Assembly (NCBI RefSeq): GCF_000166135.1 | Contig: NC_014666.1 | Coordinates: 1,860,001-1,924,000, forward strand | Reading direction: 5' to 3' | Length of the DNA: 64,000 bases | Origin: Pseudofrankia inefficax | GTDB taxonomy: Bacteria; Actinomycetota; Actinomycetes; Frankiales; Frankiaceae | Part shown: positions 5,605 to 56,357 of the stretch, piece by piece | Layout of the letters: each line of letters begins with the position of its first letter | How positions within the stretch are numbered: the stretch's first letter is position 1 | Translations under genes and position numbers: made by a program | Notes under the pieces: generated by a model | Database searches by the model: none | Seen by the model: the letters and a program-made list of their open reading frames with translations, nothing else | What the model was told of the DNA's origin: nothing

Positions 5605-6806
5605 ATGAGGCGCACCGGCATCGAGGTGACGCCGTTGACGAAGTTGGAGCGAAGCCGGTTGGGTGGGCGCAGCGGTTCGACCCGGCGTACTCGGGCGGCC
5701 AGGGTGCGGTACATCAGCTCGACCTCGAGCATGGCGAGGTGGCGCCCGAGGCAGAAGTGTGGGCCGCCGCCACCGAAGCCGAGATGGGGGTTCGGGCTTC
5801 TGCCGATGTCGAAGGTGTAGGGGTCTTCGAAGACGGACTCGTCGAAGTTCGCCGAGGCGTAGAAGATGACGACCTTGTCGTTCTCGCGGATGAGCTGGCC
5901 GCCGAGTTCGACATCGCGGGTGGCCGTGCGGCGGAACCCGTTGACCGGGCTGACCCAGCGGACGATCTCGTCCGCGGCGTGGGGGGCGAGGCCGGGGTTC
6001 TCGCGGAGCCGTTCCCACTGGTCGGGGTGGTCGATCATCGCCTGCATGCCGCCGGCGATGGCGTTGCGGGTCGTCTCGTTGCCGGCGAACATCAGCAGGA
6101 GGAAGAACAGGTCGAACTCCAGCTCGGAGAGTTCCTCGCCCTGGTCGTCCTTGGCGATCAGGCGGCTGACGATGTCGTCGGCGGGGCAGGCGCGCTTGGC
6201 CGCGCCGAGGTCGTTGGCGTAGGCGTAGGCCTCGAGGACGGCGACCGCCGCGTCGCCGTTCTGGTCCATCCGCCCGTCGGTCGCGGAGGCGAGCCGGTTC
6301 GACCAGTCGAAGAGCTTGTGGCGGTCCTCGATCGGTACACCCATCAGCTCGGCGATGACGATCAGCGGAAGGTCGGCCGCGCAGAGATCGATGAAGTCGC
6401 CGGTGCCGACGGCCAGCGCCGAGTCGACGATCGTGTCGCAGGCGTCCTGAAGGCGTTCGGCCATCCGGCCGACCACCTTCGGCGTGAAGCCCCGGTTCAC
6501 CAGGCTGCGTAGCCGACTGTGTTCGGGCGGGTCCATGTTGAGCATCATCAGCCGCTGCTGGGTGTGCTGCTCCTCGGTCATCTCGGCCAGGATCGCGGTG
6601 CACCGGCTTGAGGAGAACAGCTCCGGACTGCGCGACACCCGCATCACGTCCGCATGCCGGGTGACAGCCCAGAGGCCGTCCGGTCGCTCATGGTCGGGGT
6701 GGCGGAAGACCGGTGCCTGTGCGCGCAGCACGCGGAAGTCGTCATGCGGAATGCCGGACTCATAGCGGACCGGGTCATAGACGTCGACGGTCGGCAGCGC
6801 GGACAT
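5595..6806 (-). CDS. cytochrome P450
   Basis: This 403-residue soluble bacterial P450 has all the hallmark motifs. The I-helix oxygen-activation motif is AGNETT (241-246), ExxR is Glu280-Arg283, and the haem loop FGGGGPHFCLG holds the cysteine ligand Cys352. The N-terminus (YDPVRYESGIPHDDF) resembles actinobacterial families acting on steroids, terpenoids or fatty acids (CYP124/125/142 type). The specific substrate is unknown. The start at ATG 6806 has a GGAGG site. No ferredoxin or reductase is adjacent. It follows a binding lipoprotein, an acyl-CoA synthetase and a TetR gene on the same strand, so a catabolic hydroxylation of an imported hydrophobic compound is plausible. Confidence 0.93.
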   Translation of the reverse strand: MSALPTVDVYDPVRYESGIPHDDFRVLRAQAPVFRHPDHERPDGLWAVTRHADVMRVSRSPELFSSSRCTAILAEMTEEQHTQQRLMMLNMDPPEHSRLRSLVNRGFTPKVVGRMAERLQDACDTIVDSALAVGTGDFIDLCAADLPLIVIAELMGVPIEDRHKLFDWSNRLASATDGRMDQNGDAAVAVLEAYAYANDLGAAKRACPADDIVSRLIAKDDQGEELSELEFDLFFLLLMFAGNETTRNAIAGGMQAMIDHPDQWERLRENPGLAPHAADEIVRWVSPVNGFRRTATRDVELGGQLIRENDKVVIFYASANFDESVFEDPYTFDIGRSPNPHLGFGGGGPHFCLGRHLAMLEVELMYRTLAARVRRVEPLRPPNRLRSNFVNGVTSMPVRLIPA

Positions 6807-47105: not shown

Positions 47106-47981
47106 ATGACGTCCATGCGGAGACCGGCGGCACTCGCGCCGTCCTGGTGGACGGACGCCGGGCGTTCCGAAACCGCCGTCCACCGCGCGGCTCCGGCCGG
47201 CGCGCAGGACCGTAGGGGCGTGATCGGGCCGCCGTCGGCCAGGCACGGTGACCCGGCCGCGCAGCCGCCGCCCGCGACCGCCCGGGCCGGTTGGCCGGGT
47301 GGTGCCGCGGACTGCGACGCGGAGATCATCGCGGCCTCGCGGACCGATCCGAGGAGATTCGGCGCTATCTTCGATCGTCACTATTCCGCGATCTACCGAT
47401 ACGTGGCGCGGCGGGCCGGCCACAACGTCGCCGAGGATGTGGCCGCGGAGACGTTCACCACCGCGTTCGCGAGCCGCGCGGTCTATGACCTCGGCTTTCC
47501 CGACGCTTTGCCCTGGCTCTTCGGAATCGCGCACAACCTGCTGCGCACCCATCAGCGCGCGGAGCGACGCATGCTCGCCGCCTATACGCGCCATGGCGCG
47601 GACCCGGCCGTCGACCCGGCCGCGGCGGACGCCTTCGGCCGGGCCGACCTGCGGGTCGACTCGGCCGCGGCCGCCCCGGCCATCGCCGCCGCGCTGAGCG
47701 CGATGACGCCCGGTGACCGGGATGTGCTTCTGCTCATCGCCTGGACCGACCTCAGCTACACCGACGTCGCCCGCGCTCTCGGCCTGCCCGTCGGGACGGT
47801 CCGGTCACGGCTGCACCGCGCCCGGGCGCAGTTGAGGCCGCGGCTTGCGGCGGTGCGACCGGGAAACACGGTGCGACCGGGAAACACAGTGCGACCGGGA
47901 AACACGGTGCGACCGGGAAACACGGAGGGCTCCTCCGAAAGACAGACGGAAGCGGGAGACGGACCGGAGGACAGGCCGTGA
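47106..47981 (+). CDS. sigma-70 family (ECF-type) RNA polymerase sigma factor
   Basis: This 291-residue protein has sigma region 2 (IFDRHYSAIYRYVARRAG, then VAEDVAAETFTTAF; about 85-130) and region 4 (MTPGDRDVLLLIAWTDLSYTDVARALGLPVGTVRSRLHRAR, in part YTDVARALGLPVGTVRSRL; about 200-245). An 80-residue low-complexity N-terminal extension is unusual. The C-terminal tail is four copies of VRPGNT from an 18-base repeat. The stop overlaps the next gene by four bases, so its partner is probably a sensor or anti-sigma-like protein. Confidence 0.9.
   Translation: MTSMRRPAALAPSWWTDAGRSETAVHRAAPAGAQDRRGVIGPPSARHGDPAAQPPPATARAGWPGGAADCDAEIIAASRTDPRRFGAIFDRHYSAIYRYVARRAGHNVAEDVAAETFTTAFASRAVYDLGFPDALPWLFGIAHNLLRTHQRAERRMLAAYTRHGADPAVDPAAADAFGRADLRVDSAAAAPAIAAALSAMTPGDRDVLLLIAWTDLSYTDVARALGLPVGTVRSRLHRARAQLRPRLAAVRPGNTVRPGNTVRPGNTVRPGNTEGSSERQTEAGDGPEDRP
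47853..47924 (+). repeat. four 18-base tandem repeats inside sigma gene
   Basis: GTGCGACCGGGAAACACG occurs four times in tandem, the second copy with one base change. It encodes VRPGNT four times in the sigma factor tail, in frame. Copy number can probably vary by slippage without frameshift. Confidence 0.85.
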
Positions 47982-49123
47982 ACGAGATGACAGCTGAGAT
48001 GAGCGCGGTTCGCCTGTTCCGCGCGGAGGCAGGCGAGCCCTCGGCACAGACCGTCCACCGGGCTCGTGGCCTGCTGGACCGCCTGATCGAGGACGCCGCG
48101 GCCGGCTCACCGGACGCCTCGGCCGTGCCCACCGCCGAGGCCGCTACTCGGCTCGCGGCCGTCGCTCCGGCACCCGCAGCGGCGGACAGGTCGGCGAGGA
48201 CCATGAGCCCCTCGACTGGCGATCTCTCGGCTTCGGCGACCGCGGCGGCTCCGGTCGGGCCGGCTGCCCACGCCGGTGGCCTTCACGGTCGTGTCGGTCG
48301 CCGCGGCCGCAGGCCCCGCGCGGTCGCGATCGCCGCCATCGCCGTCGGTGTCGCCATCGCGGTGGCGGTGCCGGTTGGCATGGTGACGACACGTCACGGC
48401 GATCACGCGACCACCCTGGTCCCGGCCGCCACGGGCGCACCCACGCGGCCGGCCTGCTGGACTGAGCCGGCCCCCCAACGGGTCAAGCTCCCACCGAGCT
48501 CCGCGGCCAGTGTGAAGGGGCCGTTCTGGTACACCGAAACCTTCGCGACGACCTGGTGGAGCACGGAGCATCCCGGCCAGATACCGCCCTTGCGGTCAGA
48601 CTGGCAGGGGCCCATCTGGGCGATGTATGGCAGCAAGTACGACGTCGACCTCGACAGGTCGCCGCTGACCTATCGAGTCGGCGGCACGTGGTACACGATC
48701 GCGCAGTTCGCCACGCTGCCGGCGGATCCCGCCGTACTCGGCCCGATGATCGTCGATGACTGGCCTCAGCCCGTCGCGGACCGCACCGTCTACACCGCCG
48801 CGACGGACCTGCTGCGGCTCCCGGTGAGTCCCGCCGTCCAGGCGGCACTGTTCACCATCGTGAGGTCGCTCGAGACCGCCACGACCAACGAGCACGACCG
48901 CGACCTGATCGGCCGGCCCGCGGTCAGCGTCAGCGTGCCGGACCCGGAGAACCCTGGCACGTTCAACCGGGTCTACTTCACCCCGGAAAGCCATCATTAC
49001 CTCGGCCAGGACGAGAACGGGAAGGTCAACAATCCCTGCACCTTCGACGCCCGAGAGGTTGTACTGGCGAGCGGCTGGGTCGGCTCCATCGGCCAGACCG
49101 TCCCCCGCCATGACCATTCCTGA
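47978..49123 (+). CDS. membrane-anchored protein coupled to the sigma factor
   Basis: This 381-residue protein starts at GTG 47978 inside the sigma stop. A cytoplasmic N-terminal part (VRLFRAEAGEPSAQTVHRARGLL; in part FRAEAGEPSAQTVHRAR) is followed by a low-complexity basic stretch, one membrane helix (AVAIAAIAVGVAIAVAVPVGM, about 115-136) and an exported 240-residue domain. The arrangement matches the CU044_5270 type of actinobacterial proteins that accompany ECF sigma factors. I infer that it controls the sigma factor, but a classical zinc anti-sigma motif is not visible. Confidence 0.72.
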   Translation: MNEMTAEMSAVRLFRAEAGEPSAQTVHRARGLLDRLIEDAAAGSPDASAVPTAEAATRLAAVAPAPAAADRSARTMSPSTGDLSASATAAAPVGPAAHAGGLHGRVGRRGRRPRAVAIAAIAVGVAIAVAVPVGMVTTRHGDHATTLVPAATGAPTRPACWTEPAPQRVKLPPSSAASVKGPFWYTETFATTWWSTEHPGQIPPLRSDWQGPIWAMYGSKYDVDLDRSPLTYRVGGTWYTIAQFATLPADPAVLGPMIVDDWPQPVADRTVYTAATDLLRLPVSPAVQAALFTIVRSLETATTNEHDRDLIGRPAVSVSVPDPENPGTFNRVYFTPESHHYLGQDENGKVNNPCTFDAREVVLASGWVGSIGQTVPRHDHS

Positions 49124-49315: not shown

Positions 49316-50671
49316 CTACGGGTAGGCCCATGCGGCACCGGCGGCTGGATCGTTCACGTTGAGGACGTCGTAGAGCTGGTTGCCGACCAGCCCGTCGGTC
49401 TCAATTGCCCAGATGCCGTGCGGGTTGCTGATCAGGTGGATGAGCGTGTTCCCATCTCGTTGCAGGCGGTGGCTTTCGCCGACCATGAAGTCATTGAGTT
49501 CTGTATTGTTCGTGAAGGTGTACATCGTCGCGTTATTTATGCTGCTGTTTGCTGATACGACGCATTTGCTCGTCGGCGGTTCGGGGTTGGGGACGGAACA
49601 GCCGAGGCCCCTGAGGTCGTAGGCGAGGCGAGCGAGAGTTCTCCGTTGGTCGGCCGGGAAGGGCTGTGAGACGTCGGTGACTGCCGGGTCGTTGTAGACC
49701 GAAGGGGGTCGGGAAGACGACGTGGCGGGGTGTGTCCTTTGCTGAGGTGGCAATGTGGTCGGCTGTGTGCCCCGGCCCACCGTGGACTCCACCTGAGCGG
49801 ACGTATAGGTCGCGGGGACACCGCTGGGCGATGTCAAAAATGTCCTCGGGGTCGGGGTTAGCGATGTGCGCCCAGTTGACCCGGCAACGAGCGTAATCGC
49901 CCGGGGCACGATGAACGGCGCGGCGCCGACGAGAGCCACAGCGACGCAGGCAAACACGATCCAGCCTGGGCGGGGGCGCGGCCTGGCAGAGCGCTCGGAA
50001 CTCGTCTGCGTCGGCATGGGTGAGTCGCCACCGCGCGCAGGTGCTTCGGCGGTCTCGCTCGTGGAAGGGGCATCGTTGGTAGCGGTCGTCAATCCGGGGA
50101 AAGTTGGAGACTCTCCGGGCGGGATCTGTCGGGGAGCGACTAGTTCCGGCGGCGGCGGAGTGTGGCCCGGAAAGTTCGGTGCGGACGACGGTTTGGCGCG
50201 TCCCACAATGGCGTAGGCGATCATGTCGAGGAGGTGGCTGCGGGCGGCGTCAGCGTGGTGGTTGAACAGGTCCAAGGAGACCACCTCGCCGAGCAGGCCT
50301 GGGCGGGCGCAGTCCTCGACGCGGATAGGAATGAGTCTTCGGGCGAATCCCTGAGGGTCGGCACGGTATACGGCCTGCCACTCCGCCCGGCCGTATACCG
50401 ACGTGAGATACGCATCCGACAAGATTGCTACAGTGCGCTCGGCGCCGAGGATTCCTTCTTCCATCTGCGTCTGCCAGTGCGAGCCCGGCACGAAATCCCA
50501 GACTTGAATAAGAACCCGGTAACCTGCGGTCTCCAGCTGCCAGGCGACCCACTCGGCCCACGCTTGGTCGCGCCCGGTGTAGGAAACGAAGAAATGCCAC
50601 CGTGACTCGGGCGCCACGCCCTCGGCCACCTCCTCGTCGACGGCCTCGCGCTCCGGCTCTGCCGCGGGCAC
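49316..50671 (-). CDS. TIR-domain protein with a membrane anchor
   Basis: This 451-residue protein begins with a TIR domain (about 25-155). Signature pieces are FFVSYTGRDQAWAEWVAWQL, the BB-loop-like WDFVPGSHW, and SDAYLTSVYGRAEWQAVY, in which Glu97 sits at the usual NAD-hydrolase catalytic position. A proline-rich linker, one membrane helix (about 237-257) and an outer domain of about 190 residues with a Cys pair (GCSVPNPEPPTSKC) follow. The cytoplasmic TIR is N-terminal. An envelope-stress or phage sensor is plausible. Codon use is slightly less biased than neighbours. Confidence 0.85.
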   Translation of the reverse strand: MPAAEPEREAVDEEVAEGVAPESRWHFFVSYTGRDQAWAEWVAWQLETAGYRVLIQVWDFVPGSHWQTQMEEGILGAERTVAILSDAYLTSVYGRAEWQAVYRADPQGFARRLIPIRVEDCARPGLLGEVVSLDLFNHHADAARSHLLDMIAYAIVGRAKPSSAPNFPGHTPPPPELVAPRQIPPGESPTFPGLTTATNDAPSTSETAEAPARGGDSPMPTQTSSERSARPRPRPGWIVFACVAVALVGAAPFIVPRAITLVAGSTGRTSLTPTPRTFLTSPSGVPATYTSAQVESTVGRGTQPTTLPPQQRTHPATSSSRPPSVYNDPAVTDVSQPFPADQRRTLARLAYDLRGLGCSVPNPEPPTSKCVVSANSSINNATMYTFTNNTELNDFMVGESHRLQRDGNTLIHLISNPHGIWAIETDGLVGNQLYDVLNVNDPAAGAAWAYP

Positions 50672-53469: not shown

Positions 53470-55029
53470 CTACTCGCGGGGCAGCGCGGCATTGGCGGCC
53501 CCGACGCCACTGGCGGCTCCGACGGCCTCGGTGGCTCCGGTGCCAAGGTCATCGTCGGGTATCGGGCCGCCACCGGCCGGCCGCAGCCTGCTCAGGAGCG
53601 CCACCGCGACTCCCACCACCCGCCGGCCGAGCCGGAGGAGCAGGTAGAGCATCCCGGCCGCCGGCATCGCGACCAACAGCGTGCTGACGGCCCCGGCGAG
53701 CGCGCTGATCAGGTCTCCGCTGGCCAGCGCCCGGCTCGCCTGGCCGAACTCGCCGCGCACCGCCGAGGCTGTCCGGGGCACCACGAAGGGCGCGTAGATC
53801 ACCAGCATGACGAGGTTCACGAAAATCACCGGGGCGGCGCACAGCGCCCAGGCGGTGACCATGAGCTGGGCGCGTCTGGTCAGACCGGCCATCCGCGGAT
53901 CCTGCGTTGGTCCGGCGGATTGCCGGGCTCGCCGCCGGAACGGGACAGCGAGCGCCGCCGCCCGCAGAGCCGACCGCACGGCTGGGCCCATCCGGTCGAA
54001 CAGGTCGGGCACGCCGACGAGGTCGCTGACGATGTAGTAGCCGTCGAGCCGGACGAAGGGCGCGAGCTGCCGGAACGCGTCCAGGTGGACGAGGACCGCG
54101 GCCGTCACGAGCACCTCGGCCCGGGTGACCGCGAACGCCCCCACCACGAGCAGCGCGAAGATCCCGTTGAAGTAGATGCCCCCGAGGTCGGTGCGCAGCC
54201 GTCCCCAGCGGCGCAACCGGTAGGAGTCGGTGACGTCGGTGAAGAAGGCCGGCCAGACGAGGTACATGCCGACCCCGATCACGCCGGGCCGCGCGCCGCC
54301 GTAGCGGCAGGCCGCCGCGTGGCCGCATTCGTGAAACAGCGCGCTGACGAGCGTCACGCCAACCAGCGCCAGGATCATCCACGGCGTGGCCAGCACCGCG
54401 GCGGCGCTGTCACGCGTGCTGTGCCGACCGAACAGCCAGAGATCACCGGCCAGCAGGCCGCCCAGCAGTATCGCCATGGCCGCCGGACGGAACAGCACAG
54501 CGAACACGCCGCTGAGCCGGTACACGGCCGGCGCGGGCAGCAGGGTCCGCCGGCCGCCGAGCTGCAGGAGCGACCTCGCCCGCGGTGTGGGGGTGACACC
54601 GGTCGGGGCGGCGATCAGGCCGAGGGGCATGAGCCGGTGGGCCAGCAGGTACGCGATGTCGGCGCCGCTCACCTGGCGGGCGCAGCGCTCCCCGGCGTGC
54701 TCGGCGATCGCGGCGACGTCGCGGCTGCCGTCCGCCGCTTCGAGAACGCGCGCGAGCAGCTCGGTGAGCGCCACCACCTGACCGTCGGCGCGGCGCGCCA
54801 GGAAGACCGGACGGGCGAGGCCCGATCCCGCGAACTCGCCGAGCAGGGCAAGACCGTCGGCGCGGGTCGGCCGGGCGGGCAGCTCGACCCCGCTCGACCC
54901 GGCGGGTCCCGGGCCGGCGCCGACCGACGCGTCGTGCTGCTTCTGGCCGGGCACCAGGGCGACCTGCGACTGCCGGGTGGGACCGGGAGCCTGGCGGGCC
55001 GGCGTCCGCGGGCACGCGGGCTCGGTCAT
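53470..55029 (-). CDS. membrane M50-type zinc protease with PqqD-like N-terminal domain
   Basis: This 519-residue protein has several hydrophobic helices (about 175-200, 215-235, 290-312, 390-415, 445-465). The zinc protease motif HECGH is at 233-237 and LDGYY with the third ligand Asp329 follows. This is the S2P/YydH-like family of peptide zinc metalloproteases. Residues about 73-140 (RPVFLARRADGQVVALTELL, then DVAAIAEHAG and LLAHRLMPLGLI) resemble the PqqD/RRE winged-helix fold that binds RiPP leader peptides. The gene follows two small peptide genes on the same strand. It may cut or export them. TetR and MFS genes lie downstream. Confidence 0.85.
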   Translation of the reverse strand: MTEPACPRTPARQAPGPTRQSQVALVPGQKQHDASVGAGPGPAGSSGVELPARPTRADGLALLGEFAGSGLARPVFLARRADGQVVALTELLARVLEAADGSRDVAAIAEHAGERCARQVSGADIAYLLAHRLMPLGLIAAPTGVTPTPRARSLLQLGGRRTLLPAPAVYRLSGVFAVLFRPAAMAILLGGLLAGDLWLFGRHSTRDSAAAVLATPWMILALVGVTLVSALFHECGHAAACRYGGARPGVIGVGMYLVWPAFFTDVTDSYRLRRWGRLRTDLGGIYFNGIFALLVVGAFAVTRAEVLVTAAVLVHLDAFRQLAPFVRLDGYYIVSDLVGVPDLFDRMGPAVRSALRAAALAVPFRRRARQSAGPTQDPRMAGLTRRAQLMVTAWALCAAPVIFVNLVMLVIYAPFVVPRTASAVRGEFGQASRALASGDLISALAGAVSTLLVAMPAAGMLYLLLRLGRRVVGVAVALLSRLRPAGGGPIPDDDLGTGATEAVGAASGVGAANAALPRE

Positions 55030-55106
55030 CGAACGTCCTCTCGGCGCCTGGGTGATCTACCCGGCCGGCCGCGTCCGGGTCCGGGGCCTGTGCGGCTAGG
55101 AAAAAC

Positions 55107-55535
55107 TCACATGCCGAACCATCGGCGGAGAAAATCCATCCACTGGCCGCCGTCCGCGGACGAGCCGGCGGCGGGGACATCCTTGCCGGCGGTGCCGTCG
55201 GCAAGGCCGTCGCCGGCGTGGTGCCCGACGCCGAGGCTCTCCGGGCTCGAACCCTGGACGATGAAGTTGAAAGTCGGCATGAACGTGATGACGACCGGCA
55301 TGAAGCCGCCGGACACCTGCGGCTGTGAAACGGAGTTGACGACCGCGTTGTTCGACGCGGGCGAACTGATGGGGAAGTTGCTCGACGTGGGTGAGTCGAC
55401 CACGGCGTTGGTGGGGGTGAACCCGTATCTGTTGGTCCCGATCGCGGCGAGGGTGGTCCGATCGGGAAGAAGCTCCGCGCGCTCCTCGGACAGCTCCACC
55501 TGATCGCCCGACCGATTCACGCCCGCGTCACTCAT
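55107..55535 (-). CDS. precursor-like small peptide B
   Basis: This 142-residue protein of unknown family starts at ATG 55535 behind GGGGGAG. Residues about 17-28 are EERAELLPDRTTL, closely matching the ELLPERITL of peptide A. An Asn/Ser/Val/Pro-rich region (TNAVVDSPTSSNFPI, SSPASNNAVVNS) with the same NN-VV-SP pattern as peptide A follows. Next come a hydrophobic stretch (FMPVVITFMPTFNFIV), a glycine-rich spacer and an aromatic C-terminus WMDFLRRWFGM. The shared motif and the adjacent M50 protease suggest a leader and core, but no modifying enzyme is seen, so the mature product is unknown. Confidence 0.7.
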   Translation of the reverse strand: MSDAGVNRSGDQVELSEERAELLPDRTTLAAIGTNRYGFTPTNAVVDSPTSSNFPISSPASNNAVVNSVSQPQVSGGFMPVVITFMPTFNFIVQGSSPESLGVGHHAGDGLADGTAGKDVPAAGSSADGGQWMDFLRRWFGM

Positions 55536-55737
55536 CTTCCGTCTCCCCCGTACAGTGCCTCCAGGAATACCCTTGAGCGGAGACGCTAGTCGCACCGGGA
55601 AGCGACTCAAAACATTTTCGCGGGCGTGTCGTCGCCGTGAGAAAGAGGATCAGGATCATTCAATGCGCCGCAGGGCGCGATGAATTCCGCCGGCCGACGG
55701 CCGAAGGAGAGACGGCTCGGGTGAAGGGTGCCAGCGT

Positions 55738-55759
55738 GCACAGGCGCAACCGCCTGTGC
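55738..55759 (-). terminator. hairpin after peptide A gene
   Basis: GCACAGGCG-CAAC-CGCCTGTGC is a nine-pair perfect stem five bases beyond the peptide A stop. Such hairpins behind precursor genes often let more precursor than enzyme be made. There is no T run. Confidence 0.6.
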
Positions 55760-55764
55760 CGCCG

Positions 55765-56025
55765 TCACCACTGGTTGAGGAAGGTGTCGCCGCTGGCGAT
55801 GGAGTTGATGAACGCTCCGTAGTTGCCGACCGTCTGCACCATCGAGCTGTTACCGGTGACGACGTTGTTGCTGCCCGGCGAGTTGACCGGGGAGTTGTTA
55901 CCGGTACCCACGGACTGTCCGTTCTGGAACAACATCAACGTAATGCGTTCGGGCAGCAGCTCGACATACTCGGCAGCCAGCTCGGCGAAATCCATTCCCG
56001 AGTGGCTGGTCTTCGTCAGATCCAT
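55765..56025 (-). CDS. precursor-like small peptide A
   Basis: This 86-residue peptide starts at ATG 56025 with GGTGGGG upstream. It has an acidic, helical N-terminal half (DFAELAAEYVELLPERITL) that looks like a leader. An Asn/Gly/Ser/Val-rich segment (VGTGNNSPVNSPGSNNVV, then TGNSSMVQ) and a C-terminus ending FLNQW follow. The composition changes sharply at about residue 34, as in ribosomal natural-product precursors. It lacks Cys, so lanthionine or thiazole rings are unlikely. It shares ELLPxRxTL and the N/S/V pattern with peptide B. It is the first gene of the protease locus, preceded by a long hairpin. Confidence 0.72.
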   Translation of the reverse strand: MDLTKTSHSGMDFAELAAEYVELLPERITLMLFQNGQSVGTGNNSPVNSPGSNNVVTGNSSMVQTVGNYGAFINSIASGDTFLNQW

Positions 56026-56357
56026 TACCCCACCATCCCTCGTTCTGTCCCCGGGCGGAACCCGCGATGAAGCGCCGCGGGTTCCGCCCGATTGCACGCG
56101 ACGGTTTGTGACGCACGTACGTCGGCGCGGTGGCGCGGGCTCCACCACGTGCGCTCCGTAACAGACCGGGCTTTGCTACCCGCAGCAGCCAGCCGGCACT
56201 TCTGCACCCTAGGCCCGCCCACGACCGACCGCAATGCGATGTTGAACGTCGCCATATTGCCGGTCCCGTGGGTGTTTCGGCCCACGGCCGGGTCAGGTGG
56301 ACGGTGGTGACCGGTGGAGATTCTCGGTTATTGGCCCGGGCTCGTCCGGTCTGGCCG
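56026..56357. other. intergenic region upstream of peptide A
   Basis: A 332-base stretch with the 15-pair hairpin at 56052-56090 and a probable promoter for the peptide locus. I see no other structure; the SDR gene ends at its right border. Confidence 0.4.
56052..56090 (-). promoter_or_regulatory. 15-pair hairpin upstream of peptide A
   Basis: CGGGCGGAACCCGCG and its exact complement form a stem around a nine-base loop, 26 bases upstream of the peptide A start. It may be in the mRNA leader (a control or stability element) or be an operator. No gene overlaps it. Confidence 0.6.

Follow-up and report, generated by a model that had tools for sequence, protein, structure and literature searches.

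A leader-peptide cassette with a candidate RRE-fused intramembrane protease in Pseudofrankia inefficax and its recurrence across Actinomycetota

A 64,000-nucleotide stretch of the Pseudofrankia inefficax genome (contig NC_014666.1, positions 1,860,001 to 1,924,000; referred to here as the window) carries on its minus strand a cassette in which two small peptide genes, A and B, are followed by the gene for a membrane protease (Table 1). We read it, with a probability of about 0.6, as a leader-guided peptide maturation cassette, in which an N-terminal RRE of the protease (RRE, recognition element of RiPPs, the ribosomally synthesized and post-translationally modified peptides) would bind the leader of each peptide, the intramembrane active site would remove it, and the core would be released unmodified. 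The pairing of peptides and protease recurs in other actinobacterial lineages, whose loci have no modifying enzyme in common, a pattern suggestive of a little-known route of peptide maturation. The RiPP-like interpretation of a preliminary description of this DNA, combining RRE leader logic with an M50 protease, is supported.

Table 1. Features of the peptide-protease cassette (positions are those of the window)
Feature	Positions	Strand	Description
Peptide A precursor	55765-56025	-	86 aa; leader with ELLPERITL, Asn/Ser/Gly-rich core, Trp terminus
Leader motif of A	55936-55962	-	ELLPERITL, residues 22-30
Peptide B precursor	55107-55535	-	142 aa; paralogue of A; contains a hydrophobic stretch, and its polar tail varies
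Leader motif of B	55449-55475	-	ELLPDRTTL, residues 21-29
Intramembrane metalloprotease	53470-55029	-	519 aa; M50/site-2 protease clan, N-terminal RRE/PqqD-like domain (predicted)
RRE/PqqD-like domain	54601-54870	-	Residues 54-143 as aligned to TbiB1; predicted strands and helices 61-133
Zinc-binding motif (HExxH)	54319-54333	-	HECGH, residues 233-237
Distal motif	54040-54048	-	LDG, residues 328-330; Asp presumed third metal ligand
Hairpin	55721-55765	-	GC-rich, at the A stop codon, no T-run; -28.0 kcal/mol, 0/40 mononucleotide shuffles as low

A six-frame scan of the window finds just two instances of ELLPxRxTL, one in A and one in B, the peptides in which the preliminary description had noted it; neither A (for which this had been noted) nor B contains Cys. 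The two proteins align through both leader and core, with 34 % identity in the window and 44-52 % in six Frankia loci, and by this alignment they are paralogues. That the peptides and the protease are genuine genes follows from their conservation in the nearest relative, Frankia sp. AgB1.9 (locus L031): the final 76 residues of A are identical despite a synonymous divergence (dS) of 0.13, and identity is 98 % over the full length of A, 93 % for B and 89 % for the protease. No Pfam or NCBIfam entry matches A or B at E ≤ 0.1, in keeping with the earlier view that they belong to no assignable class; at E ≤ 10 Pfam gives a single chance-level match for A and none for B, and models of defence systems match none of A, B and the protease. 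AlphaFold models A poorly (predicted local distance difference test score, pLDDT, 47), the sole helix being formed by leader residues 13-22 at a pLDDT of about 60. A further A-like peptide, the third, shares the leader, has a related core and one Cys, and is encoded about 3.3 Mb away (G000:C1:5247628-5247888; L130:7629-7889) with no adjoining protease, and the window's own genome gives one protease match.

The protease does follow the peptides as first described, and its active-site motifs are complete. The combination of HExxH with a distal Asp inside a predicted transmembrane core assigns it to the site-2 proteases (M50); the Asp, D329, is taken by us to be the third metal ligand from what is understood of site-2 proteases, and it is invariant together with H233, E234 and H237 in 38 aligned proteases, that of the window included. 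In the AlphaFold model (pLDDT 83) residues 61-133 form three strands and three helices, with the membrane core after them, and when the Foldseek candidates were aligned with VIA-align the core matched RseP (Z 9.8), the M. jannaschii S2P (Z 9.1) and SpoIVFB (Z 9.0). At the sequence level the family models score lower than their thresholds, PF02163 reaching 18 bits against a cut-off of 27.2, and a phmmer search of the PDB sequences found no match at E ≤ 1. Site-2 proteases are best known from signalling, and the retrieval of SpoIVFB and RseP would also suit regulated intramembrane proteolysis, in which A and B regulate the protease or a membrane signal and are not secreted; the constant leader, the lineage-variable cores and the presence of one to three peptides per protease at the loci inspected look instead like the logic of a precursor, and we consider this role quite improbable.

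The N-terminal domain of the protease is probably an RRE. Residues 45-148 align by VIA-align with leader-bound TbiB1 (Z 7.9), PqqD (Z 7.6), TruD (Z 7.0) and ThcOx (Z 6.7), and the assignment rests on these several independent RRE entries falling on one stretch, on the order of strands and helices, on homology to a family of RRE-containing proteases and on a PqqD Pfam match in one of the 38 aligned proteases (E 0.0084). The resemblance to the PqqD/RRE fold noticed earlier at residues 73-140 is upheld in the model, and the domain is wider than that, its elements lying at 61-133 and its alignments reaching from 45 to 148.

Peptides and protease are inherited together. In a set of 35 Frankiaceae genomes, the protease search matched 21 at E ≤ 1e-10, strongly (E ≤ 1e-60) in 19 and weakly in two (G009 and G019); peptide matches (E ≤ 0.001) were found in 18 of the 19 strong-protease genomes and in none of the 16 others (Fisher p = 4e-9, shared ancestry left uncorrected). 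One genome, G021, has a marginal peptide match (E 0.087), and in G031 and G033 there are peptide matches distant from the protease. A wider search of genome_contigs yielded 69 protease loci: 68 from actinobacteria, judging by record title, and a weak match in Marinomonas. A strict motif search found an upstream peptide at 25 of the 68, and a leader model at a threshold of at least 12 bits found peptides at 66, though some of its seeds had been drawn from these same loci; of the remaining two, L051 has no match and at L090 the upstream sequence is missing.

A held-out sample gave the same picture. It comprised 396 Actinomycetota genomes (the window's own included), 26 of which have the protease. 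The regions around the 29 matches outside the window's own genome were taken, and a leader model seeded solely from genome_contigs loci was applied over 3 kb upstream on either strand. At a threshold of 9 bits, 21 of 27 protease loci had a leader peptide compared with one of 134 background 3-kb stretches, and that sole background match is the peptide of a further protease in L045; at 5 bits the figures are 23/27 and 9/134. Five of the six misses (L172, L182, L186, L188 and L189) carry leader-like peptides by eye, and the sixth is L171. Loci L165 and L168 have genuine leader peptides on the reverse strand. The co-occurrence that the preliminary description had named as its check is thus present both in Frankiaceae and across the phylum.

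The leader is the part of these peptides that stays constant between lineages, with a pattern, drawn up by eye, of xELxxExxELLPxRxxL or ELxxQxxExLPxRExM. The cores differ between lineages: those of Frankia and Pseudofrankia are of an NSPGSNN type, those of Protofrankia are hydrophobic, some in Amycolatopsis and Streptomyces carry Cys, several other lineages have cores of the NAAPVNAAVAANVLSD type, and in Micrococcaceae the proteins bear repeats and are roughly 220-290 residues long (start codons uncertain). The Asn/Ser/Val-rich core reported earlier is present in the window peptides but is no mark of the family. When seven peptide labels, assigned by eye, were placed on a quick protease tree (n = 62) they required six changes, the minimum possible, as against a mean of 29.5 for shuffled labels (0/200 as low). 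The ELLPxR label alone requires four changes and hence occurs in more than one clade. Because the labels track lineage, the tree speaks for linked inheritance rather than for binding.

A single core common to the whole phylum was considered and rejected for the window. The model of a NAAAP-type core fits some Amycolatopsis and Streptomyces cores (L054 and L173, 0/200 shuffles as high), whereas on the window peptides and the third copy it does no better than on shuffled sequence, its score being equalled by 23/200 shuffles for A, 141/200 for B and 100/200 for the third copy. Small basic proteins with no leader are found upstream of the protease at L049:2953-3132, L051:6497-6754 and L048:3000-3182; two of them reach 20.1 and 8.7 bits on the same model (0/200 shuffles) and the third 2.0 bits (2/200).

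The composition of the cores bears on the idea that these are surface or matrix peptides, whose Asn/Ser/Gly/Val-rich strands would assemble by themselves outside the cell. The core of A is 63 % N+S+T+G+V, cores are conserved within lineages, those of Micrococcaceae contain repeats, and the protease of other lineages is fused to, or adjoins, an extra domain with two CxxC units; but AlphaFold gives A no confident core fold, the window cores fall to the level of shuffles on the NAAAP-type model, and the resemblance of one relative to chaplins is no better than that of shuffled sequence, so that on balance we regard such a role as rather unlikely. The chaplin homology was itself rejected: the L187 peptide matched PF03777 (ChpA-C) at E 0.016, below the curated cut-off, a 20-domain chaplin model scored a shuffled relative at 16.6 bits and the best real one at 14.1 bits, and PF03777 matches neither A nor B at E ≤ 10.

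Selection on the peptides is of two kinds. Across six Frankia loci the cores are 88-90 % identical and the mean ratio of non-synonymous to synonymous divergence (dN/dS) is 0.22 for A, 0.31 for B and 0.38 for the protease, whereas six Pseudofrankia-like loci contain two core types and have mean ratios (15 pairs) of 0.86, 0.50 and 0.40 respectively. Cores are thus stable within a type, yet can switch between types, and the switch and its ratios weaken the case against a toxin; toxin, structural and signalling products may all be compatible with this pattern of conservation. One candidate is a two-peptide bacteriocin, in which A and B, once freed of their leaders, would act jointly on competitors. 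A sister pair is present in the window and at all 11 Frankia/Pseudofrankia loci from genome_contigs, B has a hydrophobic stretch (19-residue Kyte-Doolittle maximum 1.42 in the window and 2.20 in Frankia, compared with 0.73 for A), and the peptides of the Pseudofrankia-like loci exceed the protease in dN/dS and show the core switch. Against this, the Frankia peptides are under purifying selection and no candidate immunity gene or transporter common to the lineages was found. The arguments on both sides are mild, and we think a bacteriocin unlikely.

For the comparison of the cassette's neighbourhood, genes were predicted with a simple script, and flanks reached at most 7 kb. At 15 Frankiaceae loci the peptides and the protease are the sole genes present in every lineage; there are flanking genes common to four to six Frankia loci, and genes of the SDR, TetR and MFS families flank the cassette in the window and L031 only. 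In the wider set, the remaining clusters of genes that span more than six loci (the Frankia/Pseudofrankia peptides excepted) start no earlier than L050 and resemble Micrococcaceae synteny. No RiPP-modifying enzyme was found with Pfam and NCBIfam among the ten window open reading frames (ORFs) scanned (49.3-62.4 kb), which, with the lack of any other gene common to the lineages, agrees with the earlier remark that no modifying enzyme is visible. An enzyme encoded elsewhere might nonetheless alter the cores, with the protease as merely the last step in the making of a modified RiPP. RRE domains are described, in passages of PMC7470986, as the means by which modifying proteins bind leaders, the scan extended over ten ORFs only, and the third peptide, lying so far from the protease, makes action in trans likely already. 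We nevertheless hold a modified product to be unlikely, given that beside the peptides no other gene is common to the lineages, that A and B have no Cys and that cores show no apparent relationship from one lineage to another.

In the maturation scheme that we favour, A and B would leave the ribosome with an N-terminal leader, whose short helix and ELLPxRxTL segment would be bound by the RRE domain of the protease. Once bound, the peptide would be brought to the HExxH active site within the membrane for a cut that we place, provisionally, at the boundary of leader and core; the core would then be freed at or across the membrane with no further modification, presumably with a structural or signalling function that is conserved and not as a fast-evolving toxin, and the distant third peptide would be processed in trans. 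Binding and the later steps are proposed by analogy with the daptide protease MpaP, which depends on its RRE and removes leaders (in passages of PMC10036551), and with EpeP, which is thought to cleave and export (in passages of PMC10885120).

Several observations weigh against this scheme. Peptide A has no membrane-spanning stretch, unlike the usual substrate of a site-2 protease, and no transporter common to the lineages, which would explain how the core exits the cell, was found at the compared loci. All the RRE matches lie below Z 8, the range in which VIA-align cautions that an arrangement may simply be a common one, and the same stretch is fitted about equally by winged-helix domains from other enzymes (PKMT2 Z 7.6, GdmN Z 7.0), a qualification that attaches to the PqqD comparison, which is otherwise as the preliminary description had predicted; Foldseek on its own returned no match below E 0.001. 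The genome G016 has the protease, and no peptide was found in the 1.7 kb upstream on its short contig, nor was one found near the protease of L051/L171 (the same contig of one genome).

The closest known system is that of the daptides (MpaP/DapP, NF041824), which, according to passages of PMC10036551, also occurs in Actinomycetota and combines an RRE fused N-terminally to an intramembrane site-2 protease with short precursors that share a conserved leader motif. The fused arrangement is predicted here by AlphaFold and by structural matches (those to RREs below Z 8), and the protease, a distant relative of the daptide enzyme, scores 101.4 bits on NF041824 against a cut-off of 300. The daptide leader motif ELExMEAP and invariant C-terminal Thr (same passages) contrast with ELLPERITL and Trp in A and with ELLPDRTTL and Met in B, and no daptide decarboxylase, aminotransferase or methyltransferase is encoded by the ten ORFs scanned. 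The cassette would work like the protease end of the daptide pathway, yet it is no daptide system, because motif and C-terminus differ and the daptide enzymes are not among the scanned neighbours. A daptide-type locus in the genome G057 (L191, about 5980-6400 in protease orientation), which encodes two precursors with ELEMQELEALEAP and a C-terminal Thr, is, going by its sequence, a natural contrast to the A/B cassette; the same genome also carries chaplin genes.

Epipeptides (YydF/EpeX) are similar in that an M50 membrane protease (YydH/EpeP, NF058609) matures a short peptide (passages of PMC10885120). They differ in that the window cassette has an RRE domain, as predicted, fused to the protease, that no radical SAM epimerase is found among the ten window ORFs, and that the protease reaches 39.9 bits on the YydH/LiaK model NF058609 (cut-off 225). 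In the TMcin system (TmcA/TmcP), passages of the preprint PMC13252029 describe an enzyme of the site-2-protease clan that removes a leader in the membrane; its precursor TmcA contains a transmembrane helix together with a conserved pair of Cys and is accompanied by DsbA-like and ABC-transporter genes, and the term RRE is absent from the main text, whereas A and B lack Cys and their Kyte-Doolittle maxima are those given above, A having no such helix. The domain is predicted here to share the fold of the leader-binding RRE of lasso peptide synthesis (TbiB1) and of PqqD, neither of which is known to be fused to an intramembrane protease. Among the matches listed in the openly licensed literature, a search that leaves most subscription papers outside, there is no description of ELLPxRxTL peptides paired with an RRE-protease, and those listed for the leader motif concern vertebrate LPXRFamide-type peptides only. 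These comparisons suggest a stand-alone leader/RRE/site-2-protease system.

Among the domains of RiPP biosynthesis the RRE has been described as the most common (passages of PMC10036551), and it is usually read as the sign of a modifying enzyme. A broader proposal, which we make tentatively and which stops short of being probable, is that the RRE here serves for sorting and not for modification: in a route that would be widespread in Actinomycetota, a short leader and a single RRE-fused intramembrane protease would be enough to mature and set free unmodified products, from small peptides up to repeat proteins some 200 residues long, and one kind of leader would serve at least five classes of core. 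If this is true, an entire shared unit of RRE, leader and protease would escape or mislead enzyme-centred genome mining, the cassette would offer a minimal model of leader recognition coupled to intramembrane proteolysis, and it would raise the question of what part such small, conserved products play in Frankia and in other actinobacteria.

Variants of the protease were seen in several genomes. In Micrococcaceae and others the protease is extended at its C-terminus by a domain of two CxxC units (roughly N.A.A..C..C..VAVAFQVVL), as at L047:6890-9373, which gives no Pfam match at E ≤ 0.5, and at many other loci; the same domain is a separate protein near the protease in L048, L049, L165, L167, L168 and L172, and within the Frankiaceae set it was found in G016 only. 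The protease relative at L011 (G030:C2:701794-703242) has one in-frame TGA, which may reflect a pseudogene or a sequencing error, and both adjoining leader peptides read open. Gandjariella thermophila (L045) has three such proteases within about 8 kb, with adjoining leader peptides, and the genome of Pseudofrankia sp. BMG5.36 carries the cassette twice (L032 and L038), each copy with its own type of core.

The hairpin at the end of gene A is possibly an attenuator between A and the downstream genes. As a conserved attenuator it was rejected: among 24 intergenic stretches from 12 loci, the window, L031 and L034 had at most 2/40 mononucleotide shuffles as low in the stretch that follows A, and L035, L036, L037 and L039 in the one that follows B (the stretches after B in the relatives were fixed at 120 bases and may reach into the protease gene), but the other 17 gave 5 to 39/40. 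No sigma-70-type promoter site was found, and the two terminator-like sites (0.9 expected) both lie within the protease gene. Elsewhere in the window, positions 49316-50671 of the minus strand encode a protein with a TIR domain (TIR_2, E 1.8e-36), which by eye has a membrane-like segment and which gives weak PADLOC matches to the models Aga_TIR and bSEFIR, and a short tandem repeat (CFPVAP/FPGRTV), apart from the cassette, appears in the ORF list at 47752-48204.

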